From: an uncultured Eubacterium sp.
GTDB taxonomy: Bacteria; Bacillota; Clostridia; Lachnospirales; Lachnospiraceae
Assembly: GCA_947089855.1 (NCBI GenBank)
Contig: CAMUML010000006.1
Coordinates: forward strand, 1-64,000
DNA: 64,000 nucleotides
Direction: 5' to 3'
Each line of letters opens with the position of its first letter. Position 1 is the first letter of the stretch. The notes beneath the pieces were generated by a model. That model searched no databases. It was given only the letters and a program-made list of their open reading frames with translations, and had not been told where the DNA came from. The position numbers and the translations under genes were made by a program. This document shows positions 46,576-62,085 of the stretch, piece by piece.

Positions 46576-46631
46576 CCTACTGGCAAATTTTATTGCCCGC
46601 AAGTATATATTTGGGAAGAAAGGCGGTATCT

Positions 46632-47258
46632 ATGGAGCAATTGCAGATCAGGAGCAGGCTGCGGGTATTCGCATTGGCTGTTTTGGCAGGTGTAGCAATT
46701 GGCATAGGCGGAGTTTTATATTTATCGGTGGAAGATAAGGTAGTGGGGGCGCTGCTGTTTACCGTCGGGCTGTATACCGTCTGTGTACATGGGCTAAATT
46801 TATATACTGGAAAAGTCGGTTACCTAGTAAATAAACATGCCTCGGAATGGGCCGATTATTTGATAGAGCTGCTGGTCATCTGGACAGGCAACCTGGCCGG
46901 TACATACCTTGTGGCGTATGCCGTGCTGGAGACAAGGATCTGCGGCATTTCGCATACGGCGGAAGTTTTATGCGAAGCAAAAACAGAGGACAGTATTGCC
47001 AGTTTGTTCCTGCTTGCCATATTCTGTGGCCTTTTGATGTATGCTGCGGTGGAGGGCTACCAGGCGGCCAAACATCCTGCCATCTTGTTTATGGGTGTTG
47101 CGGCCTTTATCTTATGCGGGTTTGAACATTGTATTGCAGATATGTTTTATTTTTCCCTTGCGGGCGCATGGTCTATGCATACGTTGCTATGTATTTTGGC
47201 CATTACAGCAGGGAATTCTTTGGGAGGCATGTTGATACCGCTGTGTAAAAAGATATAA
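46632..47258 (+). CDS. Formate/nitrite transporter (FNT) family channel
   Basis: A 208-residue membrane protein with six hydrophobic segments. FNT features are the glycine-rich first helix (ALAVLAGVAIGIGGVLYLSV), TGKVGYLV followed by a WTGNLAGTYLVAY helix, and CGFEHCIADMFYF near residue 170, the family signature with the pore His. The protein is short compared with FocA (about 280), lacking extended termini. Transports formate, nitrite, hydrosulfide or similar anions; substrate undetermined. Start at 46632 with GAAAGGCGG upstream. It lies between xylB and purine nucleoside phosphorylase. Confidence 0.9.
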   Translation: MEQLQIRSRLRVFALAVLAGVAIGIGGVLYLSVEDKVVGALLFTVGLYTVCVHGLNLYTGKVGYLVNKHASEWADYLIELLVIWTGNLAGTYLVAYAVLETRICGISHTAEVLCEAKTEDSIASLFLLAIFCGLLMYAAVEGYQAAKHPAILFMGVAAFILCGFEHCIADMFYFSLAGAWSMHTLLCILAITAGNSLGGMLIPLCKKI

Positions 47259-47290
47259 ATCTATTAGAAAAACGGGAGAGGTGGATGGCA

Positions 47291-48112
47291 ATGTATAAAA
47301 AGTTAATGGATTGCCTGGAGGGCATTCAAAAAAAGGTTTGTTTCCAGCCGCAGATCGGCTTGGTACTTGGATCTGGCCTTGGCGGCTTTGCGGAAAAGAT
47401 ACAGGTTGAGCAGGCCATTGCTTTTGAGCAGATAGCAGGTTTTCCGGTTTCAACCGTAGAAGGGCATAAAGGCCGGTTTGTATTTGGATATGCTGCTGGG
47501 GTTCCTGTGGTCGTGATGCAGGGGCGGGTACATTATTATGAAGGGTATCAAATGTCGGATGTTGTTTTGCCGGTGCGGCTGATGGGGCTGCTTGGGGCAA
47601 AAACGCTGATTTTAACAAATGCGGCGGGCGGTATCAATGAAACGTTCCAGCCAGGTGATTTTATGATGTTGACAGACCATATTGCTACTGGGGTACCAAG
47701 CCCGCTGATAGGGCCGAATATCGCAAAGCTGGGGGAACGGTTTCCAGATATGGGCGAGGTATACAGCAGGCGGCTGCAGGAGATAGTCCGTACAAGTGCA
47801 CGCAGCTGCGGCATTGATCTAAAAGAAGGGGTATATGCACAATTTACAGGCCCTAATTATGAAACGCCTGCAGAAATCAGGATGGCGCGTGTTTGGGGTG
47901 CGGATGCAGTTGGGATGAGTACGGCATGCGAGGCAGTGGCTGCACGCCATATGGGGCTGGAAGTGTGTGCCATCTCCTGCATTACAAACTTGGCAGCTGG
48001 GCTGTCCAAGCAGCAGCTTGACCATAAGGAAGTACAGGAAACAGCTGACCGTGTGGCAGCATCTTTTGAACGGCTGGTTACCGAAATTATTAAGAATGCG
48101 GGAAAGGCGTAG
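47291..48112 (+). CDS. punA: Purine-nucleoside phosphorylase, inosine/guanosine type
   Basis: Cleaves inosine and guanosine with phosphate to base and (deoxy)ribose 1-phosphate. The 273 residues are typical of the trimeric class. LVLGSGLGGFAEKI (about 24-37), VVMQGRVHYYEGY (about 77-89), NAAGGINETFQPGDFMMLTDHI (about 114-135) and GVYAQFTGPNYETPAEIRM (about 181-199) are all conserved. The start at 47291 gives the best spacing to GGGAGAGGTGG; ATG 47285 is only 1-3 bases away. The stop overlaps the convergent niaR gene end by 23 bases. Confidence 0.96.
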   Translation: MYKKLMDCLEGIQKKVCFQPQIGLVLGSGLGGFAEKIQVEQAIAFEQIAGFPVSTVEGHKGRFVFGYAAGVPVVVMQGRVHYYEGYQMSDVVLPVRLMGLLGAKTLILTNAAGGINETFQPGDFMMLTDHIATGVPSPLIGPNIAKLGERFPDMGEVYSRRLQEIVRTSARSCGIDLKEGVYAQFTGPNYETPAEIRMARVWGADAVGMSTACEAVAARHMGLEVCAISCITNLAAGLSKQQLDHKEVQETADRVAASFERLVTEIIKNAGKA

Positions 48113-48665
48113 GGGCAGGCCCGTTGGCATGGTTCCAAAAATCAACGGGTTCATAGTCTTGCAGCGGAGCGAGCATCCCCTTTTTTTGCAGGGCTTCCTG
48201 TACGGCATCCAGTGTCTGGCCGTCATCAGCCAGGACGGTATGGTAATGGTAGCCCCCGGTTACATTTTTCAGAAGGCTGGAACGGCCGGATTGGATGTCT
48301 GATATAAATCTGCGTATGTCGATGCGCGAACGGATATTCATATCTGCACGGACAACGCCGTATACTTTATGGTAAATAAACACATCTTCTACCCGGCCGC
48401 CCAGGTCTACAATTGAAGTCAATTCCTCTTCGGCCTCTTCATCGGAATGAAATACTTTAAAAATCCGTTTGCAGCCAGCCTGGGGCAGCAGATACCCTCG
48501 GCTAGCCGAAAAGATTTCCGTCCCATTGGCACGCAGCAGCGCAATATCCTGCACGATCACCTGGCGGCTGACTTGAAGCTCTTTTGCCAGGGTAGTGCCG
48601 GATATGGGATGTTTGCTTTGTGTTAGTATTTGAAGCAGCCGGTTTCTGCGTTCCTCTCCTTGCAT
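48090..48665 (-). CDS. niaR: NAD biosynthesis repressor NiaR (HTH plus 3H domain)
   Basis: Niacin-responsive repressor of NAD synthesis and niacin uptake genes. The 191 residues show an N-terminal winged HTH (RRNRLLQILTQSKHPISGTTLAKELQVSRQVIVQDIALLRANG, in part residues 6-48) and a C-terminal 3H domain with conserved His in VFIYHKVYGVV, and GGYHYHTVLADD. It sits downstream of nadB-nadC on the same strand and probably controls them and the divergent nadA. Its own start has GGAAAGGAC upstream. Confidence 0.93.
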   Translation of the reverse strand: MQGEERRNRLLQILTQSKHPISGTTLAKELQVSRQVIVQDIALLRANGTEIFSASRGYLLPQAGCKRIFKVFHSDEEAEEELTSIVDLGGRVEDVFIYHKVYGVVRADMNIRSRIDIRRFISDIQSGRSSLLKNVTGGYHYHTVLADDGQTLDAVQEALQKKGMLAPLQDYEPVDFWNHANGPAPTPFPHS

Positions 48666-48779
48666 TTGCTGTCTGTCCTTTCCATTGCGGCCTCTTTTGG
48701 CTGCCTGCCCATTGCGGTTCTATTGCTTTTTACCTTGCCTTTTCTTCTTCGGCCTTTTTTATTGCCAGCCGGGTATGGC

Positions 48780-49643
48780 CTATTCTTTGATGGCATGCAG
48801 GTTTTTTAACGACAGGTCCAGGATCGGGGCGGAGTGGGTCAAAGCGCCGCTGGAAATATAATCTACGCCCAGGCCGGCCAGGCCTGCAATATTTTCTTTG
48901 GTCACATTGCCGGATATTTCCACTTCAGCCCTGCCTGCGATATAGCCGATTGCTTCTTTCAGCTGGTCCTGGCCCATATTGTCAAGCATAATAATATCAG
49001 CCCCTGCTGCAACGGCTTCTTTTACCATATCCAGGGTTTCTACTTCTACTTCAATACGGCGCACGAAAGGTGCATATTCTTTTGCCATCTGGACAGCTTT
49101 TGCAACACTGCCGGCAGCCCCAATATGGTTATCTTTTAACAGGACGCCGTCGGAGAGGTTGTAGCGGTGGTTATTTCCGCCTCCAGTACGTACCGCGTAT
49201 TTTTCAAAAATGCGGTTATTTGGAGTAGTCTTGCGGGTATCCAGCAGCTTGATCTTTGTGCCGGTTAACAGCTGTGCAACACTATGCGTATAGGTTGCAA
49301 TACCGCTCATGCGCTGTAAATAGTTTAAAGCAGTCCGTTCCCCGTTTAACAGGATGCGGATGTCGCCTTTTAGTTTGGCTACGTACTGGCCAGGATGAAC
49401 AGCATCGCCATCCGATACCAGGCATTCTATGGTAGTGGTATCGTCTAAAAGTTGAAAAACACGTGCAAAAATCTGCAGGCCGCAGATAATGCCGTCCTGC
49501 TTGCAGATTAGATCGGCTTCGCCCAGGCATGGGTGCGGCATAACACTGTTTGTAGATACGTCTTCACTGGAAATATCTTCTTTTAATGCGCTTAAGATCA
49601 ATGGATCGGCATTTAATTTTAAAGTTGTTGGGTCAAACATCAT
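48780..49643 (-). CDS. nadC: Nicotinate-nucleotide pyrophosphorylase (carboxylating)
   Basis: Quinolinate phosphoribosyltransferase: makes nicotinate mononucleotide from quinolinate and PRPP, third step of de novo NAD synthesis. The 287 residues show GERTALNYLQRMSGIATYT (about 100-118), LLDTRKTTPNNRIFEKYAVRTGGG (in part, 133-156), and VEVETLDMVKEAVAAGADIIMLDN near the C-terminus. Start ATGATG follows AAAGGAAA. It lies 46 bases behind nadB. Confidence 0.97.
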   Translation of the reverse strand: MMFDPTTLKLNADPLILSALKEDISSEDVSTNSVMPHPCLGEADLICKQDGIICGLQIFARVFQLLDDTTTIECLVSDGDAVHPGQYVAKLKGDIRILLNGERTALNYLQRMSGIATYTHSVAQLLTGTKIKLLDTRKTTPNNRIFEKYAVRTGGGNNHRYNLSDGVLLKDNHIGAAGSVAKAVQMAKEYAPFVRRIEVEVETLDMVKEAVAAGADIIMLDNMGQDQLKEAIGYIAGRAEVEISGNVTKENIAGLAGLGVDYISSGALTHSAPILDLSLKNLHAIKE

Positions 49644-49689
49644 TCATTATTTCCTTTCACACATATGTAAATTATTTTTCGGTATTTTA

Positions 49690-50976
49690 TCATCTGCCCT
49701 GGCTGGCTTCTGCAATTTTGTTCAAGGTCAATGTGCGGTATTCCTGGACAAGTGCATCGTTGTCCTGGTAGGCGGAAAAATCTACCGGTACCGGAAGTTC
49801 TGCGGCAGGTATCGGGAACCGGCCCGCCATATCCTTGGCGGCCCGCTTTGCAAAAACAAGGCTTTCCAAAAGGGAGTTGCTGGCAAGGCGGTTTTTTCCG
49901 TGGACACCGTTGCAGGCAGTTTCCCCTATGGCATACAGCCGTTCCATAGAAGTAAGGCTGTTATAGCCTACTTGGATGCCACCCATAAAATAGTGCTGTG
50001 CAGGGACGACCGGGATACATTCTTTTGTTACGTCATAGCCCATTTTTGCGCAGTGCGCAACGATATTTGGAAAATGGTGCTTGAGTTCTTGTGCAGGGAT
50101 TGGCCGCAGGTCTTCCCATACAAAGGCAGTCTGGTCTTTTTCCATCTGAGCTAAGATTGCCTCGGTTAGCTGGTCGCGCGGAAGCAGCTCATTGACAAAA
50201 CGCCGCATATGTTTGTCATAGAGCTTTGCACCTTCCCCACGCACAGATTCGGAAATCAAAAACCGGCGGTCTTCTTTGTGCGGGGAATAAAAGGTAGTAG
50301 GATGGATTTGGATGTAATCCATATTTTTTAGCGCAACCCCATGCCTGCATGCAATCGCAATCGCATCGCCGGTCAAGTGGCGGAAATTAGTGGAATGCTT
50401 GTATAATCCGCCAATGCCCCCAGTCGCCAGGACCGTAACTGCTGCTGCAACTGCCTGGAGGCTTCCGTCTTGGCCACGGATGACTGCACCAAAGCAAGTA
50501 TTGCCTTGGCTGACCAGGTCAAGCAGGGCTGTATGCTCTAACAGCGTGACATTTTCCCGTGCCTGTACCTGTGACAGCAGGCGGCTTGTGATCTCGCGGC
50601 CGGTAATATCCTTATGGAACAAGATCCGGTTCCTGGAATGTGCCCCTTCCCTGGTAAATGCCAGGGATCCGTCCGGTTCGCGCTGGAAATCTACCCCATA
50701 GCCTAACAAGTCCTGGATAATCTCTGCGGATGAACGGATCATAATGTCCACAGACGTCCGGTCGTTTTCATAATGCCCAGCCTGCATGGTATCTTCAAAA
50801 TAGCTGGCATAGTCGGATTCATCTTTTAACATACAGATGCCGCCCTGTGCAAGAAAAGAGTCGCTGCTTTCAAGGTCGGACTTTGTAATGACCGTTATCT
50901 GCAATTCGCGCGGCAGCTGCAGTGCGCAATATAGGCCGCTGCATCCACTTCCGACGATTAAAATATCTGTTTTCAT
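49690..50976 (-). CDS. nadB: L-aspartate oxidase
   Basis: FAD enzyme that oxidises L-aspartate to iminoaspartate for quinolinate synthesis. From ATG 50976 it has 428 residues, slightly short because the C-terminal helical tail of some homologs is reduced. N-terminal FAD motif ILIVGSGCSGLYCAL (about 4-18), SFLAQGGICML (about 43-53), HSRNRILFHKDITGREI, and GIQVGYNSLTSMERLYAIGETACNGVHGKNRLASNSLLE (in part) near the end. An open frame extends 90 codons upstream but is not conserved. In anaerobes fumarate usually replaces oxygen as acceptor. Confidence 0.96.
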   Translation of the reverse strand: MKTDILIVGSGCSGLYCALQLPRELQITVITKSDLESSDSFLAQGGICMLKDESDYASYFEDTMQAGHYENDRTSVDIMIRSSAEIIQDLLGYGVDFQREPDGSLAFTREGAHSRNRILFHKDITGREITSRLLSQVQARENVTLLEHTALLDLVSQGNTCFGAVIRGQDGSLQAVAAAVTVLATGGIGGLYKHSTNFRHLTGDAIAIACRHGVALKNMDYIQIHPTTFYSPHKEDRRFLISESVRGEGAKLYDKHMRRFVNELLPRDQLTEAILAQMEKDQTAFVWEDLRPIPAQELKHHFPNIVAHCAKMGYDVTKECIPVVPAQHYFMGGIQVGYNSLTSMERLYAIGETACNGVHGKNRLASNSLLESLVFAKRAAKDMAGRFPIPAAELPVPVDFSAYQDNDALVQEYRTLTLNKIAEASQGR

Positions 50977-51116
50977 AAGTTTTCGTCTTTCATTTATTTG
51001 GTTCCAGGCTGCTTTTGGAAGCTGTGGTGGATTTGGCGTGGAACCATGAAGCATATTATAGCATATGTATGTGCAGGTGACAAGACATATGTGGGGGCTG
51101 TTTGCAGGGGAGGCTG

Positions 51117-51161
51117 ACGGAATGCGCAGTTTATGCGCATTCCTGGCCCGTGAATAGTAAC
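51117..51161 (-). repeat. R1 fragment (right end)
   Basis: ACGGAATGCGCAGTTTATGC through CCCGTGAATAGTAAC match the last 45 bases of reverse-oriented R1 copies. The rest of the element is missing. It lies in the divergent nadB-nadA region, between the two genes. Confidence 0.8.
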
Positions 51162-51269
51162 GTCCGAAAGTTACTATTCTGCTTTTGGAACAAAATATAG
51201 TATTGAGACACAAATAGACTGCAACATAAAAGTATACTATGTTTTCCTCAATCATTTTTAACGTTACTT

Positions 51270-51298
51270 TTGACGTCCCTCCAATATTCTGTTATAAT
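51270..51298 (+). promoter_or_regulatory. Promoter of nadA
   Basis: TTGACG (51270-51275) and TATAAT (51293-51298) with an ideal 17-base spacer, 64 bases before the nadA start. NiaR probably binds close by, but I cannot define its site. Imperfect dyads AACATAAAAGTATACTATGTT (in part, 51222-51244) lie upstream. Confidence 0.75.
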
Positions 51299-51361
51299 AA
51301 AAAAATCTATGGACAGGCAGCAATCAAACAAGTGAAACAGCCTAATAATAAGGGAGAAAAC

Positions 51362-52285
51362 ATGTTTACAACAAAAGCACTACAGGAAGAGATAATCAGA
51401 TTAAAAAAAGAAAACGACATCTGTATCCTAGCCCATGCATACCAAAGCCAGGATATATGGGAAGTAGCCGATTATGTGGGGGATTCCTATGGCTTAAGCC
51501 TGGAAGCTGCGAAGGCAGGGCAAACGTCTGTATTGATGTGCGGAGTGCGTTTTATGGCGGAAACGGTCAAGATCCTTTCGCCGGATAAAAAAGTCCTGCT
51601 TTCCCATCCGCAGGCGGGCTGCCCGATGGCGGAGCAGATGGACGTGGAAACGGTCAACCAGCTAAAGGAGTCGTATCCAGGCTATACAGTGGCGGCTTAT
51701 ATCAATACAACAGCAGAATTAAAAACGGCCTGTGATGTCTGTGTGACTTCTTCGTCTGCTGTGAAAATAATCCGTGGCCTGGAAAATAAGGATATTTTAT
51801 TTATACCGGACTGCAACCTGGGCGCATGGACGGCTAGCCAGGTACCGGAAAAAAATATTAAGCTGGTGGAAGGCGGGTGCCCGGTCCATGCGGGTATCCA
51901 GCCGGAAACGGTGGAATCTATGCGTAGGCTGTATCCAGAGGCGGAATTGCTAGTCCATCCGGAATGTCTGCCGCAGGTGGCAAGTCAGGCAGACTACGTC
52001 GGAAGTACGACAGGCATAATGGATTATGCAAAAAACAGCGGCGCGCGTGCCTTTCTTATAGGTACGGAAAACAGTATTGTGCAGCATTTGCAGTTTGCCT
52101 GTCCGGACAAGCAGTTTTATGCCCTGTCGAAAGACTGCACTTGCAATAATATGCGGCTGACTACTTTAATGGACGTTTACCATTGCGTGAAAGGGGACGG
52201 CGGGGAAGAGGTCAGGCTGCCAGCGGATGTGATGGAAAAGGCAAGGCGCTGTATCGATGCGATGTTGCAGATGGAACGCGGTTAA
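51362..52285 (+). CDS. nadA: Quinolinate synthase A
   Basis: [4Fe-4S] enzyme that condenses iminoaspartate with dihydroxyacetone phosphate to quinolinate. The 307 residues show LAHAYQSQDIWEVADYVGDSYGL (in part, about 20-42), MCGVRFMAETVKIL (first cluster Cys), CDVCVTSSSAV, FIPDCNLGAW, HPECLPQVA (second Cys) and STTGIMDYA. The third cluster Cys lies in the CTCNN segment near the C-terminus. Start 51362 follows GGGAGAAA; upstream codons of the open frame overlap the promoter. Only 24 bases separate it from the STM4015-type gene, so co-transcription is likely. Confidence 0.97.
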   Translation: MFTTKALQEEIIRLKKENDICILAHAYQSQDIWEVADYVGDSYGLSLEAAKAGQTSVLMCGVRFMAETVKILSPDKKVLLSHPQAGCPMAEQMDVETVNQLKESYPGYTVAAYINTTAELKTACDVCVTSSSAVKIIRGLENKDILFIPDCNLGAWTASQVPEKNIKLVEGGCPVHAGIQPETVESMRRLYPEAELLVHPECLPQVASQADYVGSTTGIMDYAKNSGARAFLIGTENSIVQHLQFACPDKQFYALSKDCTCNNMRLTTLMDVYHCVKGDGGEEVRLPADVMEKARRCIDAMLQMERG

Positions 52286-52309
52286 AAGTATTTTAAGGGA
52301 GGAAATCAA

Positions 52310-53176
52310 ATGGGCGAAGGGACGAAGGCCAAAAAATATGCATATGGCTATAGCGAGTATACGGAACAGGGCAAAGGCCCGGAAACAATGGTAGCGGATA
52401 TGTTGGTAGACCCGGAATTTGGGTCGCTTGCAGAGGTTTCCGTCGGGGACTGGGGTGCTTGGGAGAATAGCTGCCAGCCGATTATCGATGGGATTGTAAA
52501 AGAAGCGGAAAAGTTTGCGCATATCCGCCATTTATTTATTGGGGATATGGGGTTTGAGGAATGCGAAGTGTCATGGATTATACAGGGGGATTACAGTAAA
52601 CTGTGGGCTGCACTGCCAAATTTAAAAGAATTGACGATTAAAGGGAGTACCGATCTGGAGCTGGGCAAAGTCTGCCATGAAAATTTGGAATCGTTGACCA
52701 TTATCTGCGGCGGCCTGCCGGAAGATGTGGCCGCATCCATCCGGGATGCGAAGCTTCCGAACCTCAAAAAGCTGCTGCTTTATATTGGGGTGGAAGATTA
52801 TGGATTTGATGGGGATGCGGATACGGTAAAAGAGCTGCTGGAAAAAGCGGATTTCCCGAAACTGGAATATTTAGGTATTGTGGATAGCGAAATCCAAGAT
52901 GAGCTGGCCGAAGTGGTGCTGGCAAGCAAATTTATGGGGCAGATCCATACGCTGGACCTGTCTATGGGTACATTGACGGATAAGGGTGGTGCACTTGTTT
53001 TGGAGCAGGTTGTAAAGTGGCCGAACATTAAGAGGCTGGACCTTAGCTACCATTATATGTCAGAAGAAATGGCAAGCAAATTTGAGGAACTGCCGATTGA
53101 AGTGGATGTATCGGATGCAAATGAGCCGGACCTGTATGACGGCGAAGTCTATATGAATGCCATGTTGACGGAATAG
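52310..53176 (+). CDS. STM4015 family leucine-rich protein
   Basis: A 288-residue protein of the STM4015 type. After an N-terminal alpha/beta part it has irregular leucine-rich repeats, for instance LPNLKELTIKGS, LESLTIICGGLP, LPNLKKLLLYIG, FPKLEYLGIVDS and WPNIKRLDLSYH. LRR folds form curved binding surfaces, so it may present or recognise a substrate for the enzymes that follow. No signal or membrane segment. RBS GGGAGG. The family is uncharacterised; its role as scaffold or substrate is my inference. Start of a five-gene run. Confidence 0.88.
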   Translation: MGEGTKAKKYAYGYSEYTEQGKGPETMVADMLVDPEFGSLAEVSVGDWGAWENSCQPIIDGIVKEAEKFAHIRHLFIGDMGFEECEVSWIIQGDYSKLWAALPNLKELTIKGSTDLELGKVCHENLESLTIICGGLPEDVAASIRDAKLPNLKKLLLYIGVEDYGFDGDADTVKELLEKADFPKLEYLGIVDSEIQDELAEVVLASKFMGQIHTLDLSMGTLTDKGGALVLEQVVKWPNIKRLDLSYHYMSEEMASKFEELPIEVDVSDANEPDLYDGEVYMNAMLTE

Positions 53177-53194
53177 GGATGGAAGGGACAAGCA

Positions 53195-54256
53195 ATGGAA
53201 GCGTTCAGCGGCGCTAGGCGGGTAATGCTTTTGGGAAATCCAGGTACAAAAAGGACCGTTTATTTTATGCAGGCAGCAAAGGAGGTAGGGCTGCCTGTCT
53301 GTTTTGCTGCCTGGAATGAGTTTGGCCAATGGAAACGCCGTATGTCGACGGACACGGGCTGGGTTGTGAAAATAGACCCACCGCTATGGGAAAGCTGCCG
53401 GCTGGATGAGCTGGGTGCCCTTGCGGATGGCTATCAAAAACAGCTTGCAGAATTGTCTGGCATAGCGCAGGGCGGCCGTATCGGGTTTTTAAACCAGCCG
53501 GCAGCAATTGCCAAGTTATTGGATAAATATGTGTGTAAGGAGGAATTGCTTAAGGCGGGGCTTCCGGTGACAGAACCGCTGTATTTATTGGAGGGTGGCC
53601 GGCAGGCCTGCAATGCAGATGTGCTTTTCGAATGGATGCGCCAGCGTAGGGTGTTCCAGATATTTCTTAAGCCGGTTTATGGTTCTGGGGCTGCCGGGGT
53701 ATCGGCATTCCGCTGGCAGCCGCTATCGGGGCGGATGGTTCTGTATACTTGCGCGGTGGAACATCCGCATAGCGGTTTGGTGAATACGAAACGGCTGCGG
53801 CGGTTTGCAGAGCCGAAAACAGTAGCCCGTATGCTGGACCGCATTTTGGGGCTGGGCTGTATTTTGGAGCGGTGGCATGCGAAGGCAGAATATCAGGGGA
53901 TGCCGTATGACTTACGGGCAGTGGTGCAGGACGGGTACGTGGATTTTATGCTGGCACGGCTGTCCAAGGGGCCGATCACAAACCTGCATTTAAATAACCA
54001 TCCATTAGACATAAAAGAGCTAAATCTCCCGGCGGACGTATTAGAAAATATTACAAATATCTGTATCAAAGCGGCGGGGTGTTTTTCAGGGCTTCAAAGC
54101 GTAGGGATCGACCTTTTGCTGGAAAAGGGGAGCCAAAAGCCTTTGGTGGTTGAGATGAATGCCCAGGGCGACCTGATCTATCAGGATATATTTCAGGAAA
54201 ACCGTATTTACCGGCATCAGGCGGCGATGATGAAAAGCTGCGTTGGCCAGGTTTGA
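53195..54256 (+). CDS. STM4014 family protein with ATP-grasp fold
   Basis: A 353-residue protein. The N-terminus resembles a pre-ATP-grasp Rossmann domain (RRVMLLGNPGTKRTVYFMQAAKEVGLPV). The ATP-grasp core has IFLKPVYGSGAAGVSAF (about 158-174), a KxxxGSGxxGV-type loop, then YDLRAVVQDGYVDFMLARLS, and GIDLLLEKGSQKPLVVEMNAQGDL near residues 304-327 with the metal-binding Glu and Asn. ATP-grasp enzymes join a carboxylate to an amine or thiol, so ligation of an amino acid or peptide is expected. Starts 18 bases after the STM4015 gene. Confidence 0.88.
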   Translation: MEAFSGARRVMLLGNPGTKRTVYFMQAAKEVGLPVCFAAWNEFGQWKRRMSTDTGWVVKIDPPLWESCRLDELGALADGYQKQLAELSGIAQGGRIGFLNQPAAIAKLLDKYVCKEELLKAGLPVTEPLYLLEGGRQACNADVLFEWMRQRRVFQIFLKPVYGSGAAGVSAFRWQPLSGRMVLYTCAVEHPHSGLVNTKRLRRFAEPKTVARMLDRILGLGCILERWHAKAEYQGMPYDLRAVVQDGYVDFMLARLSKGPITNLHLNNHPLDIKELNLPADVLENITNICIKAAGCFSGLQSVGIDLLLEKGSQKPLVVEMNAQGDLIYQDIFQENRIYRHQAAMMKSCVGQV

Positions 54257-54271
54257 AAGGAAGAGGGGCAT

Positions 54272-55111
54272 ATGGAAGCAGATCAAGATAACAAGCCGGC
54301 CACGTTGCAAAAAGTGGATATGGGCAAGGTGGTAGGCAGCATGGATATTTTGTTCCTCTGCCTGGATGCCCTGCGGTATGATGCGGCAGCAGGCGAGGAA
54401 GCGTCTGGGGCTACGCCAGTGCTTAACCGCTATGGTGCATGGCAAAAATGCCAGGCACCAGGCAATTTTACCTATCCTTCCCATCATGCCATGTTTGCAG
54501 GGTTTTTGCCGTGCCGCTATGGGATCAAGAAACTGGCGGACCGGGAGCTGTTATTTTACCCGTCGGCGATTGGGCTGCGCAGGAAAGTGCCGGATGGATC
54601 CTATGCGTTTAACGGCAGTACGATTATGGAAGGGCTGGCGCGGGACGGGTATCTGACCTGGTGCGTAGGCGGTGTTTCTTTTTTTGATAACCGGTCTGAT
54701 ATGGGCAAGGTGTTTCCTGGGTATTTCCAAAGAAGCGACTGGAACCCTTCGTTTGGGTGCAGGGTAAAAGACAGTACCAAAAACCAGGTAGATTTTATCC
54801 TGGACCAGATGGGCGGCATACCGCCTGAAAAAAAGGTGTTCCTTTATTTAAATGTGGATGCAGTGCATTATCCCAATTATTTTTATTTGGAAGGCGCTGC
54901 ACACGACAGCCTGTCCAGCCATGCGGCGGCCCTGCGGTATGTGGACGGCCAGCTTGGGCGGCTTTTGGATGGCTGGAAGGGGCGGCGTAAACGTGCATTT
55001 GTGATCTGCTGCTCGGATCACGGAACTTGCTATGGGGAAGATGGCTGCTATCTGCATGGGATCAACCATCCAATGGTGGATACCGTGCCGTATAAGCATT
55101 TCTTCCTTTAA
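54272..55111 (+). CDS. STM4013/SEN3800 family alkaline phosphatase-superfamily hydrolase
   Basis: A 279-residue metal-dependent hydrolase of the alkaline phosphatase/sulfatase superfamily. The metal Asp is in LFLCLDALRYDAA (about 27-39), the probable nucleophile Thr or Ser in GNFTYPSHHAMFAG (about 68-81), and further ligands in CCSDHGTCYGEDG (about 248-260) with a following HGIxHP. It lacks a signal peptide, so it acts in the cytoplasm, unlike most sulfatases. Phosphate ester hydrolysis is the likely chemistry. RBS GGAAGAGGGG. Its stop codon overlaps an alternative STM4012 ATG. Confidence 0.9.
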   Translation: MEADQDNKPATLQKVDMGKVVGSMDILFLCLDALRYDAAAGEEASGATPVLNRYGAWQKCQAPGNFTYPSHHAMFAGFLPCRYGIKKLADRELLFYPSAIGLRRKVPDGSYAFNGSTIMEGLARDGYLTWCVGGVSFFDNRSDMGKVFPGYFQRSDWNPSFGCRVKDSTKNQVDFILDQMGGIPPEKKVFLYLNVDAVHYPNYFYLEGAAHDSLSSHAAALRYVDGQLGRLLDGWKGRRKRAFVICCSDHGTCYGEDGCYLHGINHPMVDTVPYKHFFL

Positions 55112-55173
55112 TGCAGGAATGTGGTGGCTTTGGAGCGTTAATCAAAATTTTAGGAAAAGGAAGCGAAACAGCA

Positions 55174-56583
55174 ATGAACCCATACACACAATATATGTAT
55201 AGCTATCCCCATAAAACAGCCTACCGCCCCCTGCCTGCTATTCCGTTGGCAACGTATGCCCCGTTTTTGGCAGGCACTGGGCACAGCCTGTATCTGCACC
55301 TTCCATTTTGCCAGGCAAAATGCGGTTACTGCAATTTATTTTCTGTTACCGCCCAGGGCAAAACGGCGATAGGCCGTTATCTGGATGCTTTGGAACGCCA
55401 ATGCCGGCAATATGCTAAAGTTTTGGAACCGGTGCAAACCGTATTCAGTGAATTTGCGGTAGGAGGGGGTACGCCGCTCTACCTGCCGGTGGACCAGCTG
55501 GTACGGGCGTTTTCCATAGTGCAAACGTATTTTGCATTTGCACCGGGTCTGGAATTTGCCGTGGAGACGGCGCCAAACCAGACCAGTGCAGAAAAGCTGG
55601 AGGTGTTAAAACAGGCAGGCGTTACCAGGGTAAGCATGGGCATCCAGAGTTTTTCGGACCAGGAGCTGAATGTGCTTGGGCGGGTACACCGTGCGGACGA
55701 GGCACGGGAAGCGCTTGGGCTTTTAAAAGCGTATGGGTTTGCCTGCATCAATGTGGATTTTATTTATGGAATTGCAGGCCAGACAGCAGAAAGCCTATTG
55801 GATTCCCTAAAAGAAGCGTTGGAGTATGGGCCGGACGAGATTTTTTTATATCCATTGTATGTAAGCCATGGTTCAGGTATGCAGCTGCAGGGGGCAGCGG
55901 TGGATGCGCAGGCAGCAGCCAGCCAGTACCAAAGCGCCAGCCGCTTTTTACGGGGGCAGGGCTATCGGCAGGATTCCATGCGCCGGTTTGTACGGGGGCA
56001 GGGGGTACGGGCATTTTCTGAATGCGGATTTGGCAGTTCCCTTGGCCTGGGCTGCGGTGCGCGCAGTTATCTTGGCAACCTGCATTTTTGCAGCCCATAT
56101 GCCGTAGAACAGGAAGAATGCCTGGAACAGATCGCATCCTATGGGCGGACCAGGGATTTCACGAAGATTATGCATGGGTTCCTGTTATCCGAAGAGGAAG
56201 AAAAGCGCCGTTACTTGATCCGGCATCTATTCATTTCCCCAGGTATCAGCCTGCAGCGATACAAAGCACAGTTCCAAAGCAGCGTAATGGAAGATTTCCC
56301 AGTCCTGCGCCAGTGGATGGAAGCTGGCTATGTTTGCCGGGAGCGCAGGATGGCAGCAGCACCGGGCGAAGCAGCGGCAGAGCAGCCGGTGCCGGCAGTG
56401 GAACGGGGGAAACAGGCGGGATGCCCGGAGGAGTGGCTTGTGATGTCCGCGGAAGGGTTGGCGCTTTCGGACTATTTAGGCCCGCAGCTGATTTCCGGGC
56501 AAGTGCAAAAAGCGATGGAAGAATGGGAGGTGCAGCATGGGCAGGCACACGATGGTTTACCGGGGCAGCCTGAAAAGCTGTAA
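55174..56583 (+). CDS. STM4012 family radical SAM protein
   Basis: A 469-residue radical SAM protein resembling coproporphyrinogen-type HemN. LYLHLPFCQAKCGYCNLFS contains the cluster motif CxxxCxxC (about residues 41-48). EFAVGGGTPLYL (about 92-103) and RVSMGIQSFSDQELNVLGR (about 153-171) are HemN-like SAM-binding segments. The C-terminal half has a HemN-C-like winged region and a Gly/Ala-rich linker. The start at 55174 follows GGAAAAGGAAG. An alternative ATG at 55111 overlaps the previous stop (TAATG). Not expected to be a true HemN, given the locus. Confidence 0.9.
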   Translation: MNPYTQYMYSYPHKTAYRPLPAIPLATYAPFLAGTGHSLYLHLPFCQAKCGYCNLFSVTAQGKTAIGRYLDALERQCRQYAKVLEPVQTVFSEFAVGGGTPLYLPVDQLVRAFSIVQTYFAFAPGLEFAVETAPNQTSAEKLEVLKQAGVTRVSMGIQSFSDQELNVLGRVHRADEAREALGLLKAYGFACINVDFIYGIAGQTAESLLDSLKEALEYGPDEIFLYPLYVSHGSGMQLQGAAVDAQAAASQYQSASRFLRGQGYRQDSMRRFVRGQGVRAFSECGFGSSLGLGCGARSYLGNLHFCSPYAVEQEECLEQIASYGRTRDFTKIMHGFLLSEEEEKRRYLIRHLFISPGISLQRYKAQFQSSVMEDFPVLRQWMEAGYVCRERRMAAAPGEAAAEQPVPAVERGKQAGCPEEWLVMSAEGLALSDYLGPQLISGQVQKAMEEWEVQHGQAHDGLPGQPEKL

Positions 56584-58054
56584 CTACGCCTGTTCTTATT
56601 GCCCTTTTTCCAAACGCCGCATGTCGGCGCAGGAACTGGATGCGGATAGGGGGCATTGGATGCAGTTTATCCGGTCGTTTGTCAAGCAAAAACGGCAGTA
56701 TGCCAAAAACTGGGGGATCCGCGCGCTGCTTGTCGCGCCTTATGGGGAAGCGCTGGTCCATCCGTGGTACTGGGAGGGGCTGGCACTGGCTAGTTCCCTG
56801 GACGGGATGGATGCGGTAGGTGCGCAGACAAACCTGGGGTTTGCGGTAAAGCAAATGGCTGGCAGGTTTGCGGATGCAGGCGGGGTGTTTGAAAAGCTAA
56901 AACTCGTCGCGGCGTTTCATCCGCAAATGGCTACGGTCCAGGAATTTTCACAACGAGTCCGCCAGCTTCAGGAACTGGGGGTTACCGTAAGTGCAGGGGC
57001 AGTCGGGGCCCCTGAAAATATAGGGCTGGTCCGCCAGCTTCAAAAAGCGCTTCCTGAAGGGGTACATCTTTGGATCAATAAAATGGACGGGCTGCGGCGT
57101 GCCTATACTGAGGATGAAAAAAAAGCCTTTGCGGAAATTGACCCGTATGTGTTCCGGGAATGGATGCCGCCAGCCGCGGATGTTTCAAAGTGCCAGGGGC
57201 GGATTTTTGTAGAAGCAGACGGGCGGCTGCGTACCTGCCCGCTAGGCCCCGTGCTGGGGCAGGGCTGGCAGGATATTTGCAGGGAATCGCAAAACCGCAG
57301 GCCGCCAGGCGTTCCGCAGCCGGTATGCCGCCGCAGCGTTTGCACGTGCCATCTGGCATATAGTGGGCGGGATGATTTTATGAACCAGGTGCTGTTTGGA
57401 CCTTACCCGCTCTTCCGCATCCCCAGGAAACCGCGGGCTGCTTTTTTTGATATTGCAGGGACGCTTGTTCCAAAGCCAGGTTCTGGAAAAGCTGGAAAGG
57501 TACCGGTTCCAGTGCTGGAAGGGCTAAACGTACTGTCCTTAGAAAAAACGGCCTTGTTTTTTGCAACGACAATGCCATATCCGACGGCTATGGCTTGCTG
57601 TGCCAGTGTCCGTAAGATGTTCCGTGGCGGGGTTTTTGCAGCAGGGGCGCATCTTGTTTTCAATTACCCGGATGGAAGCAGGAAAGAACACTATTATTAC
57701 TTAGATGAAAGCTGCCGGCAGTATCTGGAAGGGGTAAAGGGCGTTTACCGGTTCCGCATCCTTGACTACCAACACGGTGGGCGCAGTTATAAGCTGACGT
57801 TGCTGCGTACTAGCAAAAGGCCGTGGAGCCTGCAGGAAGCCCATACCGTATTTCAGTCTTTGCCAGTATCTTGCCAGGGGCATCTGCGTTATTTTGTGGA
57901 AGGGAACTGTATGCAGATCGTAGCCGCACAGGCAGATAAAGCGGCTGGGGTAAAAATGCTGTGCAGCTGGCTTGGGGTACCGCTTGCCGAGGCTGTTGCC
58001 GCTGGGGATTCGGCAGAAGATGCGGGGATGCTGGCGTTATGCGGCGTTTCATAG
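56537..58054 (+). CDS. STM4011 family radical SAM protein fused to a HAD-like domain
   Basis: A 505-residue two-domain protein. Residues about 1-285 are radical SAM: SCNYACSYCPF has the CxxxCxxC motif (about 14-21), and a Cys-rich end (CPLGP ... CRRSVCTCHL, about 235-275) may bind an auxiliary cluster. Residues about 300-505 are a HAD-type hydrolase: AAFFDIAGTL (about 305-314) is motif I with the nucleophilic Asp but Ala for the second Asp, and AVAAGDSAEDAGML is motif IV. The frame stops only five residues later, 40 bases before an R1 repeat, so the HAD C-terminus looks cut short. RBS GGGAGG; overlaps the STM4012 gene by 47 bases. Confidence 0.88.
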   Translation: MGRHTMVYRGSLKSCNYACSYCPFSKRRMSAQELDADRGHWMQFIRSFVKQKRQYAKNWGIRALLVAPYGEALVHPWYWEGLALASSLDGMDAVGAQTNLGFAVKQMAGRFADAGGVFEKLKLVAAFHPQMATVQEFSQRVRQLQELGVTVSAGAVGAPENIGLVRQLQKALPEGVHLWINKMDGLRRAYTEDEKKAFAEIDPYVFREWMPPAADVSKCQGRIFVEADGRLRTCPLGPVLGQGWQDICRESQNRRPPGVPQPVCRRSVCTCHLAYSGRDDFMNQVLFGPYPLFRIPRKPRAAFFDIAGTLVPKPGSGKAGKVPVPVLEGLNVLSLEKTALFFATTMPYPTAMACCASVRKMFRGGVFAAGAHLVFNYPDGSRKEHYYYLDESCRQYLEGVKGVYRFRILDYQHGGRSYKLTLLRTSKRPWSLQEAHTVFQSLPVSCQGHLRYFVEGNCMQIVAAQADKAAGVKMLCSWLGVPLAEAVAAGDSAEDAGMLALCGVS

Positions 58055-58094
58055 TATAAGGAATGGCTGGATACGTAACCGTCCTTCATTTCAT

Positions 58095-58238
58095 GTTACT
58101 ATTCACGGCCTGGGGGCCGTTCTTAGTAACCATTCGGGGCGATATTGGAAGTTTGCTTCGCAAAACCGCCCCTCACTCCTGCATCATGTTCTCACGGAAT
58201 GCGCAGTTTATGCGCATTCCTGGCCCGTGAATAGTAAC
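58095..58238 (-). repeat. R1 element, full copy with exact target duplication
   Basis: GTTACTATTCACGGCC ... CCCGTGAATAGTAAC, 144 bases, flanked on both sides by CATTTCAT (58087-58094 and 58239-58246). This identical 8-bp duplication shows R1 moves by transposition. It lies just behind the truncated HAD end of the STM4011 gene. The 360-base gap also holds the promoter below. Confidence 0.95.
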
Positions 58239-58276
58239 CATTTCATGCAGATTTTTGGCATCTTATGCAGGAAGTG

Positions 58277-58306
58277 TTGACAAACAATAGGATATTTTTG
58301 CATAAT
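58277..58306 (+). promoter_or_regulatory. Promoter of the STAS gene
   Basis: TTGACA (58277-58282) and CATAAT (58301-58306) with an 18-base spacer, about 110 bases before the start. Confidence 0.6.
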
Positions 58307-58413
58307 AAAAGCAAAATATTGCATTGGCGGTAATGCATGATATGCGGTGATAAGGGACGGACTGGCATTCATATTGAGCGGATCCCGTAAAAAACTCAGG
58401 AGGTTGAAGGTTT

Positions 58414-58716
58414 ATGAATATTACAAAAACAAAAACAGGCAGCAGCCTAACGATAGCATTGGAAGGAAGGCTGGATACGACGACTGCGCCGGAGTTGGAA
58501 AAACTTCTGTCCGGGGAGATTGGCGGTGTAGAAGAGCTGGTAATCGATATGTCTGCACTGGACTATTTATCATCGGCAGGGCTGCGTGTACTGCTTGGTG
58601 CGCAAAAAACCATGAATAAACAAGGCAGTATGAAAGTTGTCCATGTCAATGAGACTATTATGGAGATATTTGAAGTAACCGGTTTTTCAGAAATACTAAC
58701 GATTGAGGCAGAATAA
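58414..58716 (+). CDS. STAS-domain anti-sigma factor antagonist
   Basis: A 100-residue single STAS domain like SpoIIAA or RsbV. TIALEGRLDTTTAPELEKLL (about 13-32) and LVIDMSALDYLSSAGLRVLLG (about 48-68) are the family core. The Ser of YLSSAGLR is the usual phosphorylation site that switches binding to an anti-sigma kinase. No partner kinase or sigma factor is adjacent, so the pathway is unknown. RBS AGGAGG. Own promoter upstream. Confidence 0.93.
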   Translation: MNITKTKTGSSLTIALEGRLDTTTAPELEKLLSGEIGGVEELVIDMSALDYLSSAGLRVLLGAQKTMNKQGSMKVVHVNETIMEIFEVTGFSEILTIEAE

Positions 58717-58797
58717 GTTGAAAAGCTGTGGAAACCAAGCGGTTATGCTTGATGGTTTACGGGTGGCGGGAATTTGTAAGGGGTTTGGACGGCATTT

Positions 58798-58838
58798 AGG
58801 GACTGTCTCGAAATAACTTACTTTGCGGTAGTTCCTTA
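58798..58838. repeat. R3 element, decayed short copy
   Basis: AGGGACTGTCTCGAAATAAC and the partner GTAGTTCCTTA match R3 ends with several changes. Around it the 360-base gap between the STAS gene and the ATPase fragment holds no gene; a weak hairpin with GGCAACC lies near 58891. Confidence 0.55.
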
Positions 58839-59076
58839 GCTGTGGGTAGAAACTCATGGCTAAGGGCGGCTATTGCTGTCGCCATATTCGGGCAACCACG
58901 TATGGGCGGTTGTCTTTTCTTTGTATCTATGATATAGCGTGTCTTGAATTTGTTAGCAAAAGTCTTTTTTCTGTCAGCTAGTCTTTGTATTATGAAATTT
59001 TATAGTAAGATAAACATATACTGATTTATATGATAAAATATCTTTCATACATCCAGTGTAAAATCAACAATGAAAA

Positions 59077-59412
59077 ATGAGCTGCAAACGGAATAGAGTT
59101 ATTTTCATTGATGAGATTGATAGAAGTTTTCATACGAAATTAACAAAAAGGTATTTGAAATTATTTTATGAATTAACACAAAATAATACATGCCAAATAA
59201 TTGCAACTACCCATGATTCTAATTTACTGGATTTGGATTTGGTACGGCAAGACGAAATTTGGTTTGTAGAACGACAGGATAATCAAAGTTCATGTATTTT
59301 TTCTTTGAATAAGCTCAAAGAAAGATATGATAAACGTATTGATAAAGAATATTTATCAGGACGATATGGTGCAATTCCAGTATTTGATAATGAACTTTTG
59401 GAGGATATATAA
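59077..59412 (+). pseudogene. C-terminal fragment of a RloA-like AAA ATPase
   Basis: The 111-codon frame encodes only the end of an AAA_15-type ATPase: VIFIDEIDRSFH (Walker B), QIIATTHDSNLLDL (His switch) and a C-terminal LKERYDKRIDKEYLSGRYGAIPVF. The first 250-300 residues including Walker A are missing, and the frame has no proper start. Such ATPases pair with RloB in abortive-infection-like defence loci, and the RloB-like start lies directly behind. Broken remnant. Confidence 0.75.
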
Positions 59413-59540
59413 TGGTTAACCGGTATAGATTGGCATCAACTATATATGATCGGGAAAAAGAAGAAGACAAGGTTGCACTAGAAAAAGTTATTTTTTTGTC
59501 CGTAGAAGGAAATATTTCAGAAAAAGAGTATTGTGTAAAA
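59412..59540 (+). pseudogene. N-terminal fragment of a RloB-like protein
   Basis: Following GGAGGATATA and overlapping the previous stop by one base, an ATG opens a frame with VIFLSVEGNISEKEYC, the start of RloB-type (TOPRIM-like) proteins. The likeness ends near position 59540, after about 43 codons. The frame then runs on through sequence belonging to an opposite-strand element gene. A deletion or insertion fused the two. Confidence 0.6.
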
Positions 59541-59541
59541 A

Positions 59542-59676
59542 TCATTTTTCATCTTTCTTTACTGCATACGTTTCAAAGAAATATTCCAAGAATCTGTTTT
59601 TGTCAATCCTCACCAGCCGTCCATATTTATATACGGCTCCGGCTTCCTCGGCAATCTGCCGCACCTTTCCTTTCAT
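59542..59676 (-). pseudogene. Excisionase-like (DUF6462-type) fragment
   Basis: A 44-codon frame on the minus strand, MKGKVRQIAEEAGAVYKYGR and then LVRIDKNRFLEYFFETYAV, resembles the short HTH proteins that serve as excisionases in Gram-positive integrative elements. Upstream on the same strand (59677-59850) a second frame without recognisable domain is out of phase, so the full gene is probably broken. The rest of the gap to hicA holds only its operator. Confidence 0.5.
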
Positions 59677-59885
59677 TGTCCGCCAGCAGTATGCCCCAAG
59701 TATTATTTTTGTAAAGCCTTATTAACGGCTCTTTCTCCGGCACGTCCGTCGGACAAACAACTTTTGACATTTTCTTTACAGGCTTGCCGTCCAAAACATT
59801 CCTCATACGCTCGAAACGGTCTGCAAATTCCTCAATAAAGTTTTAACGCCCTGTCCTTTTTATTATAATTTTACACTTATTTTTA

Positions 59886-59914
59886 TAATACGTATTAACA
59901 TTATACGTATTATA
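59886..59914. promoter_or_regulatory. Tandem palindromic operator before hicA
   Basis: TAATACGTATTA (59886-59897) is a perfect palindrome, and TTATACGTATTATA (59901-59914) is a near one, with centres 15 bases apart. A promoter with TTTACA and TATTAA overlaps the first. HicB-type antitoxins commonly repress their own operon through such sites. Confidence 0.55.
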
Positions 59915-59946
59915 TGCTATTATAATAATGCAAGGAGGAAAACAAA

Positions 59947-60135
59947 ATGCCAATGAAACCAAGGGAGATGGAAAAGCTAATCCTTGCAGACGGGTGGATG
60001 TTTAAAAACCAAGAAGGTTCTCATAAAAATTACATACATCCGACTAAACCGGGAAAAGTCACAATACCGTTTCACACAAAAGACCTTCCCAAAGGTACAG
60101 AAAATTCCATCAAAAAACAGGCGGGGCTTAAATAG
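59947..60135 (+). CDS. hicA: HicA mRNA interferase toxin
   Basis: A 62-residue double-stranded RNA-binding-fold toxin that cleaves mRNA. PREMEKLILADGWMFKNQEGSHKNYIHP contains the catalytic His in GSHKNYIHP (about residue 25-33), and VTIPFHTKDLPKGTENSIKKQAGL is the usual end. RBS AAGGAGGA. Followed 42 bases later by its antitoxin gene. Confidence 0.94.
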   Translation: MPMKPREMEKLILADGWMFKNQEGSHKNYIHPTKPGKVTIPFHTKDLPKGTENSIKKQAGLK

Positions 60136-60177
60136 CCCCACTGCCTGCCCCTTTAATAATAATAGGAGGTGTGTTAA

Positions 60178-60606
60178 ATGTTATCAATGTATCCAGCCTG
60201 TTTCTTTCATGAGGAAAACGGCTATTCTGTAGTGTTCCCTGATCTTAACTGGTTATCTACATGCGGAGATACCTTTGAAGAATCCATGGAAATGGCTGTT
60301 GAATGTTTAGCGGGCTATCTTCATACTTGCCAAATGGATGGAGATAATATACCAAAACCGTCAAAATTAACAGATATTGACCCGCAAGCTGTCGCAAAAG
60401 AACTTGACCCAGATGCGCCTATGTGCGAATGTCTTGTCAACATGGTTTCTGTAGATGTGGCTTCATATGCAAAGGAACATTTTGAGAAATCAGTCAAAAA
60501 AACACTTACAATCCCGGCATGGCTTAATAACGCCGCTTTGGAAAAAGGTATCAACTTTTCACAAGTTTTACAGGACGCATTAAAAGCACAGTTGCACTTA
60601 GGATAG
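60178..60606 (+). CDS. hicB: HicB antitoxin
   Basis: A 142-residue antitoxin. The N-terminal HicB domain (about 1-65, YPACFFHEENGYSVVFPDL and GDTFEESMEMAVECLAGYL) blocks HicA. A C-terminal ribbon-helix-helix-like part (about 108-142, KTLTIPAWLNNAALEKGINFSQVLQDAL) binds DNA. RBS GGAGGTG. A terminator follows, so hicAB is a self-contained unit in a region of mobile-element remnants. Confidence 0.93.
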   Translation: MLSMYPACFFHEENGYSVVFPDLNWLSTCGDTFEESMEMAVECLAGYLHTCQMDGDNIPKPSKLTDIDPQAVAKELDPDAPMCECLVNMVSVDVASYAKEHFEKSVKKTLTIPAWLNNAALEKGINFSQVLQDALKAQLHLG

Positions 60607-60655
60607 GCTTTCCCTGTTGAAGCAATGGAAGTGATTCAAATAGTCATGCTCTGAT

Positions 60656-60690
60656 AACCGCTGTGGTTCATTTGGTCTACAGCGGTTTTT
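60656..60690 (+). terminator. Terminator of hicAB
   Basis: AACCGCTGT (60656-60664) pairs with ACAGCGGTT (60679-60687), continuing into T residues. Confidence 0.88.
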
Positions 60691-60717
60691 CTTTCCAAAA
60701 AGTGCCGCCCTAGCCGC

Positions 60718-62085
60718 CTATTTTCCGCCTGTACCGCTTTCCATGATATTTTCCCCGTCTTTTGGTCTGTGTCCGTTTCTGTACTCCATCTTCCGGTTCA
60801 TCATAATAGAAGCAAAAAGCATCCCGTCCCGCCATTCAAACCGGGCATCCCCGTGATACCGCTTTGCGGCTGCACGCACGGATTCTATGCCCAATCCAGA
60901 TTTATGTTGGTTCTTAAAATCATCCGGTCCATGTTCAAACGGCGGCTTTGCGCAAGTATAGTCTACCGTTAACATTAATGTACTGTCGCCAAGCTGTTTC
61001 GCGTTTACCTGGACCAACCGGCGGTTTTCCAATGATAAGCAGGCATCCAGGGCGGTTTCCAGCAAGTTCCCAAGGATTGCACACAAATCCGGTTCCGGGA
61101 TGATACAGGGTTCCTTAATCGGAAACGTAATATCCATTTTAATCTGCTGGCGGCTTGCTTTTTGGGCATAATAGGCTAAGATTGCGTTTACCGCAGGGTT
61201 GCTGCAAAACTGGCAGTATGGGGATTGCGGCATAGATTCCGTATATTTTTGGATATAGGCGCTCAATGCGTCATAATCGCCGTTTTGGGAATAGCTTTGC
61301 AGGGCTTTCCAATGGTAACGCATATCGTGGCGGGCACGCCTGGTTTCTTCGACCTGTGCCTGGATAAATGCATATTGTTCTGATTGTGCCTGCAGCAGAA
61401 ATTCCATGCTGCGGCTGCGTTCTTCGGCAATGGCCTGGTTTTGCATCTGCCGGATGGAACGGATCAGGAAATGGTATATAAGCAGTATGCATATCATGAG
61501 CAGGGTACGTGCCAGAAGCGAAAGGAAACTGCCGTTTTCCAGCGGAAAAGTAAAAAGGAAAACGGTCAGGGTGTTGAAAAAGGGCAGAAGCCACAGAGTT
61601 TTCCAAAAGCCTGGGGCATCTGTTTGAAATACAAGCTGGGCAGTACTGTTGATATAATGTACCATAATAGGCATAGTAGCAAAAAAAAGGAGCAGGACAC
61701 CGGTACCGGCCTCCCAGCCACATGGGGGCAGGTGCAGGAGAGAAACCGCCACGAAGGAAACGGCGCCTCTTACAAACATAACATAAGCGGCCGTAAAAAT
61801 ATAAAGGAATGCAATTTTGCCTGGTTCCATCTTTACAAGGCAAAAAAATAGGGTGCCGAACAGGGGCACGAAGATAAGCTGTGCATATCTGGCAGAAGCG
61901 CTTGCATAGTAGAGCAGAAAATAGATGTATGTAAAAACCAGTTGTTCTGCCAATAGGGTGAAAAGTGTTGCTTTTTTAGAAAAACGCAGATAATCCCAAA
62001 AAGGGATATAGGCGAATAGGTGGAATGGGAGTGTACTGGCTACCATATAAAAAACAAATGCTGTTTGGCTGGATGGTACTTGCAT
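60718..62085 (-). CDS. Agr-type (GHKL) membrane sensor histidine kinase
   Basis: A roughly 455-residue kinase like AgrC. Six or more membrane helices fill residues about 8-205. The dimerisation helix has the phosphoacceptor in RHDMRYHWKALQSY (about 265), and the GHKL ATPase domain has NLLETALDAC (N box) and SGLGIESVRAAA (G box). Such kinases usually sense secreted peptides. Start placed at 62085, where the membrane part begins; the longer open frame runs into the regulator gene. The ribosome site is weak, and it lies 69 bases behind the regulator gene, so one operon. Confidence 0.9.
   Translation of the reverse strand: MQVPSSQTAFVFYMVASTLPFHLFAYIPFWDYLRFSKKATLFTLLAEQLVFTYIYFLLYYASASARYAQLIFVPLFGTLFFCLVKMEPGKIAFLYIFTAAYVMFVRGAVSFVAVSLLHLPPCGWEAGTGVLLLFFATMPIMVHYINSTAQLVFQTDAPGFWKTLWLLPFFNTLTVFLFTFPLENGSFLSLLARTLLMICILLIYHFLIRSIRQMQNQAIAEERSRSMEFLLQAQSEQYAFIQAQVEETRRARHDMRYHWKALQSYSQNGDYDALSAYIQKYTESMPQSPYCQFCSNPAVNAILAYYAQKASRQQIKMDITFPIKEPCIIPEPDLCAILGNLLETALDACLSLENRRLVQVNAKQLGDSTLMLTVDYTCAKPPFEHGPDDFKNQHKSGLGIESVRAAAKRYHGDARFEWRDGMLFASIMMNRKMEYRNGHRPKDGENIMESGTGGK

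Follow-up and report, generated by a model that had tools for sequence, protein, structure and literature searches.

The window analysed here, positions 1 to 64,000 of contig CAMUML010000006.1 from an uncultured Eubacterium sp. of the Lachnospiraceae, carries at 52310-58054 on the + strand a cluster of five genes of the STM4015, STM4014, STM4013, STM4012 and STM4011 families, in that order. We find that STM4015, a leucine-rich protein, ends in an invariant glutamate, and that the five families are retained together even where their genes are scattered. Based on these and other features, we give an even chance to the idea that the cluster encodes a carrier-protein pathway in which a leucine-rich protein is the carrier and which operates in the manner of the amino-group carrier (LysW) systems. 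The five families were already named and known to be co-located; the invariant glutamate at the end of STM4015 is new here.

We scored the window proteins with NCBIfam profiles and compared the bits with the curated cut-off of each family. All five proteins exceed their cut-off and the genes are adjacent and in family order, bearing out an earlier note on this DNA that had described five compact, same-strand genes of these families in this arrangement. The features are:

52310..53176, + strand: STM4015 family, leucine-rich and acidic, with a proposed role as carrier or substrate (NF038076, 320 bits against a cut-off of 275)
53150..53173, + strand: C-terminal tail of STM4015, YMNAMLTE, whose last codon, GAA (53171-53173), encodes the invariant Glu
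53195..54256, + strand: STM4014 family, ATP-grasp ligase, proposed Glu loader (NF038074, 315 bits against 175)
54272..55111, + strand: STM4013 family, alkaline-phosphatase-superfamily hydrolase (NF038075, 365 bits against 250; Pfam Sulfatase)
55174..56583, + strand: STM4012 family, HemN-like radical S-adenosylmethionine (SAM) protein (NF006067, 492 bits against 380)
56537..57424, + strand: STM4011 family, radical SAM part (NF038073, 243 bits against 200, residues 5-296)
57437..58054, + strand: HAD-IIB hydrolase-like domain, C-terminal in the STM4011 open reading frame (ORF), from domain matches; motif I reads DIAGT

The fifth ORF (56537-58054, 505 aa) thus fuses STM4011 to a HAD-IIB domain, which distinguishes it from the NCBIfam STM4011 family and was absent from the earlier description. 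For STM4012, a start at 55174 is more likely than the ORF start at 55111, because in the longer ORF the match to the family profile sets in only at residue 24. The proteins are members of named families without assigned function; the earlier note, too, knew of no product for the cluster, and passing mentions in the literature on the locus and the family names agree. No paper on a leucine-rich/radical SAM/ATP-grasp system or on a carrier system of this kind was among the matches listed in a search that mostly left out subscription journals, and an earlier description is possible.

The last residue is Glu in all 114 distinct STM4015 ORFs, none of which runs past a contig end. The residue before it varies (Thr in 100, Gly in 7, Ser in 5 and Ala in 2), and an additional STM4015, from genome G328, has the tail GPMFTE and so is also Glu-ended. 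Among representatives of less than 60% identity, the terminal Glu is present in 24 of 24, and the tail is conserved across about eight residues with Glu alone invariant. Glu makes up 100% of the last column of the 113-row profile alignment, and no other column after column 241 of 308 reaches 98%. As Glu synonymous codons are mixed at this position and all three stop codons are used, selection acts at the level of the protein. By comparison, Glu is terminal in 57 of 766 neighbouring ORFs, counted over mechanical ORFs of at least 150 aa rather than annotated genes, and in the other families the most frequent final residue accounts for 14 of 99 STM4014, 47 of 89 STM4013, 22 of 87 STM4012 and 11 of 86 STM4011 proteins.

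We also searched 13 genomes of the genus for the DNA pattern of [A/P]MLTE-stop. It matched ten times, once in each of ten genomes and always at STM4015, while a reversed control matched once in the same 13. The three genomes without the pattern are G008 and G011, which have no STM4015, and G006, where the tail is PLLTE. As the pattern is confined to STM4015 in these genomes, the tail is not a general tag. A solved relative, PDB 2RA8 from Bacteroides fragilis (Q64V53, E 2.6e-103), is likewise Glu-ended in its aligned part, which closes with YPMITE at residue 354; its chain has 362 residues, and the eight beyond this Glu are probably an affinity tag. For this entry we found a structure title and no paper. 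A variant form occurs at locus L093 (8405-10819), where an 805-aa ORF has a long N-terminal extension followed by an STM4015 domain ending in MMTE. It belongs to the same series of metagenome-assembled genomes (JAAVZU) as L073, which itself has a complete cluster.

STM4015 is a protein of about 290 residues with leucine-rich relatives in a PDB sequence search. It is strongly acidic, with a median isoelectric point (pI) of 4.34 and a range of 4.05-5.20 over 107 proteins; STM4014 and STM4011 are mostly basic (median pI 8.43 and 8.51), and STM4013 and STM4012 are near neutral (6.45 and 6.52). Tandem full-length copies of STM4015 exist at seven loci, and of each of the other four families at none. 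Because the C-terminal Glu is invariant, we propose that STM4015 serves as carrier or substrate. This sharpens the earlier suggestion of a peptide or cofactor pathway with a leucine-rich scaffold or substrate. If the tail were instead a docking signal, it would act only as a recognition peptide, bringing the enzymes together on the leucine-rich scaffold, and STM4014 would join small molecules in solution. C-terminal carboxylates are common docking signals, and leucine-rich proteins often bind proteins. Docking alone, however, leaves a strictly invariant Glu beside a ligase with terminal-glutamate relatives unexplained, and we think this explanation unlikely.

A single set of 98 related genomes was searched with all five family profiles, and STM4015, STM4014 and STM4013 exceed their cut-offs in an identical 13. 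STM4012 does so in 12 of these, G004 scoring 377 against 380. STM4011 also does so in 12, the exception being G001, where a contig end has probably already shortened the STM4012 match. In the remaining 85 genomes no family exceeds its cut-off, and some have weaker superfamily matches. In five of the 13 cluster-bearing genomes, the genes lie at two or three places: STM4015-STM4014 apart from STM4013-STM4012-STM4011 (G003, G005 and G007), STM4015-STM4014-STM4013 apart from STM4012-STM4011 (G010), or, along one contig of 6.3 Mb in G004, STM4015-STM4014, STM4013 and STM4012-STM4011 separately. STM4015 and STM4014 are adjacent in all five of these genomes, and STM4012 and STM4011 remain paired in broken-up clusters. 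Since the set is retained though scattered, it is held by function and not by shared transfer alone. Every member does come from a broad superfamily, and one could imagine five unrelated genes co-travelling by chance. With three families in the same 13 of 98 genomes, two in 12 of these, and the set kept when dispersed, we regard this as extremely improbable. The earlier note had held that the five genes must act together and had proposed mapping the cluster across genomes, and the single presence/absence pattern obtained in this way supports it.

Across a sample of 398 genomes from the phylum, STM4014 is found in eight, including the window's own, and seven of the eight have an adjoining STM4015; in the eighth, G328, STM4014, STM4015 and STM4011 are on three contigs. 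We considered locus L091 as an exception to co-occurrence, as STM4014 is missing there, and rejected it, as the same genome has an STM4014 elsewhere, beside a further STM4015-like sequence. A cluster copy on a Bacteroides finegoldii plasmid (L016) has a short piece of STM4013 and no STM4012, and looks decayed; its STM4015 carries an N-terminal WGR domain. Orphan STM4015 genes are present on three further plasmids (L022, L106 and L107), seen from the plasmid records alone.

One search for cluster loci, made with a pattern that avoids the STM4015 tail, contributed the best 80 of 582 confirmed loci, a collection that is biased toward relatives of the window. Not counting two copies of the window itself, 69 of the 80 other complete loci have exactly the order STM4015-STM4014-STM4013-STM4012-STM4011, and the remainder mostly have tandem or split genes. 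The same order is annotated in records from Salmonella, Paenibacillus, Deinococcus (three records), Methylobacterium and Streptomyces, in line with the earlier statement that Salmonella has the cluster too and that the set moves as one. We built a tree from the joined proteins of 23 loci, having fixed a Bacillota group of 16 rows beforehand, and monophyly of these rows was rejected by the approximately unbiased (AU) test (p-AU 1.9e-6). Salmonella and a Bacteroides-like contig group with Clostridia, and the Paenibacillaceae group with Deinococcus, Methylobacterium and actinomycetes. Unlike amino-acid composition was flagged in 14 of the 23 rows, and the fine branching is unreliable. The cluster has moved horizontally.

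A survey of neighbouring ORFs of at least 70 aa, with smaller ORFs outside its scope, revealed no constant sixth companion; the earlier note had suggested a search for a small ORF that accompanies every cluster. The commonest neighbour families are each present in a minority of loci (20, 13, 11 and 11) and, judged by eye, resemble ABC transporters, signalling proteins, MATE exporters and LysR-type regulators. At five loci from Deinococcus (three), Methylobacterium and Streptomyces (L018, L019, L020, L104 and L105), the cluster stands beside a DUF6745 protein and a conserved protein of about 100 aa with the motif GEVTGHSH...QREY.P; a DUF6745-like protein is also present at L021.

STM4014 is the usual neighbour of STM4015, and we asked which named ligases it resembles. 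Among 40 members, secondary model matches (E up to 0.01) were to RimK in 33, MptN in 32, CofF in 13 and LysX in 10, and these four are among its nearest named models, at low scores. All four are ligases that attach amines to terminal glutamates. By analogy with RimK, STM4014 might add one or more glutamates to STM4015 for regulation, leaving the radical SAM enzymes to act on another substrate. RimK-type models are indeed the most frequent secondary matches of STM4014, and RimK is reported to add up to fifteen glutamates to ribosomal protein S6 (PMC4431377). Nevertheless, STM4015 and STM4014 have their presence pattern in common with STM4013 and the two radical SAM genes, for which one joint pathway is the simpler explanation, and we consider regulatory tailing very unlikely.

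The radical SAM motif CxxxCxxC is kept in 88 of 88 STM4012 and 87 of 87 STM4011 proteins. STM4012 matches the PDB sequences of HemN (1olt) and the methyltransferase NocN. The STM4011 alignment contains further invariant cysteines; these are SPASM-like, and six of 24 members match SPASM. Such cysteines, together with a tail conserved over about eight residues and thus beyond the last one, would also fit a pathway resembling those of ribosomally synthesized and post-translationally modified peptides (RiPPs), for which mycofactocin and pyrroloquinoline quinone are comparison cases, as are graspetides. The core would then consist of the final four to eight STM4015 residues, modified in place by the radical SAM pair and joined or capped by the ATP-grasp enzyme before cleavage to a small product or cofactor. 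The pairing of ATP-grasp and SPASM enzymes is itself known from RiPP loci (PMC8939145). However, Glu alone is invariant in the tail, and the position before it lacks a hydroxyl in nine of 114 proteins (Gly 7, Ala 2). Moreover, in place of a short precursor there is STM4015, which is folded, leucine-rich and about 290 residues long, and no peptidase was recognised in the cluster. We hold a RiPP-like pathway to be possible but doubtful. A graspetide locus would have a short precursor beside an ATP-grasp gene whose enzyme makes a lactone or lactam link; the survey of neighbouring ORFs, which covered those of at least 70 aa, showed no recurrent companion.

The nucleophile position of STM4013 is Thr in 15 of 15 aligned rows, and we take its conserved metal and Thr positions to correspond to those of its superfamily. 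A role of STM4011 as a sulfatase maturase for STM4013 was rejected on account of this Thr. The HAD domain is fused to STM4011 in 55 of the 80 other complete loci and separate in two (one of them a weak match of 32 bits); in the other 23 we did not find it. A plasmid record from Salmonella has six consecutive genes, with the HAD hydrolase separate from STM4011; the label 'putative hydrolase' given to Salmonella STM4010 fits such a separate gene (PMC4632510). Of 48 fused domains retrieved by a motif search, 36 have Asp at the third position of motif I, 11 have Glu, and one, the window's own, has Ala. Because its motif I reads DIAGT, the window's HAD domain may be inactive as a phosphatase.

Our preferred reading, the carrier pathway, would proceed as follows. 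STM4014 would use ATP to activate the C-terminal Glu carboxylate of STM4015 and couple it to an amine, which would belong to a small building block, probably an amino acid. STM4012 and STM4011 would then alter the tethered building block by radical chemistry. In the last and least secure step, STM4013, with the HAD domain where present, would remove a phosphate or aid release of the product. The observations consistent with this reading are the shared presence and absence, the transfer, the terminal Glu, the acidity of STM4015, its tandem copies and the weak affinity of STM4014.

Three known systems invite comparison. LysW-type carriers are described as receiving an amine on the gamma-carboxylate of a C-terminal Glu (PMC10433800, PMC9303977) and as contacting their enzymes through acidic-basic surfaces (PMC9303977). 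The LysW/ArgW systems, with LysX/ArgX, resemble this cluster in placing an acidic carrier with a C-terminal Glu beside an ATP-grasp ligase, and STM4015 shares the Glu end in 114 of 114 proteins. The LysW carrier is, however, a small globular protein with zinc-binding cysteines, whereas STM4015 has a leucine-rich fold and, in an alignment of 42 rows, no invariant or near-invariant Cys; and LysW systems use a kinase, a reductase and an aminotransferase where this cluster has radical SAM enzymes. In the pearlin pathways of peptide aminoacyl-tRNA ligases (PEARLs), a building block is made while amide-bound to the C terminus of a carrier, in one case with a radical SAM enzyme (PMC9303977). There, a PEARL that uses aminoacyl-tRNA loads a small peptide, in contrast to the ATP-grasp enzyme and folded protein proposed here. 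In the pair of RimK and S6, an ATP-grasp ligase works on the C-terminal Glu of a protein (PMC4431377), but S6 is no carrier and radical SAM enzymes are lacking.

Several results weigh against the carrier pathway. The EDWGE motif of the carriers is found in 0 of 114 STM4015 sequences and the GSWGR motif of LysX/ArgX in 0 of 101 STM4014 sequences; because these defining motifs are missing, we keep the cluster outside the LysW systems, yet it probably works like one. The window's STM4014 scores 29.3 bits with the RimK model, far below its cut-off of 143.4. In a comparison of STM4014 with PDB sequences, all of these matches were weak, and RimK (E 0.02) and LysX (0.04) came behind D-Ala-D-Ala ligases (0.003) and a pyruvate carboxylase domain. 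STM4014 stands apart from STM4015 in G328 and on the second contig of L091. STM4013 and STM4012 are near neutral rather than basic, and we recognised no release peptidase in the cluster.

Upstream of the cluster, genes of nicotinamide adenine dinucleotide (NAD) synthesis occupy 48090-52285. They include nadA, assigned by profile, which ends 24 bp before STM4015; nearby, assigned by eye, are nadB-like and nadC-like genes and, on the opposite strand, a probable NiaR-type regulator. Adjacency of NAD genes to the cluster was not seen in the other loci scanned, and we rejected a link to NAD synthesis through nadA, which that scan showed solely in the window's own genome, covered there in two copies. 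Three places in the window, 58095-58238 (directly after STM4011), 41999-42142 and 5926-6069, carry a dispersed element of 144 bp with the inverted motif CGTGAATAGTAAC at its borders. It has at least 41 matches in the window's genome, 40 of them near full length, from the scoring of 40 of 186 candidates. An RNA element was rejected, as an Rfam gathering search had no match in 46000-62000. Anti-phage defence was also rejected: four of the five proteins matched no PADLOC model, and STM4012 had a weak match to the candidate model PDC-M51A (21.5 bits, E 2.1e-5).

The conserved chain end of STM4015, beside a ligase family with terminal-glutamate relatives, makes an uncharacterised cluster experimentally approachable. 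We think it a little short of an even chance that these genes represent a new class of biosynthesis on a carrier protein, with hosts that range from Salmonella and the Lachnospiraceae of the gut to Streptomyces and Deinococcus, in which a RimK/LysX-like ligase charges the Glu of a leucine-rich protein and a radical SAM pair and phosphatase-type hydrolases build a metabolite or cofactor. If so, a folded leucine-rich protein would join the known covalent biosynthetic carriers and be tied to radical SAM chemistry, and the cluster would lead to a metabolite common to gut anaerobes and soil bacteria.

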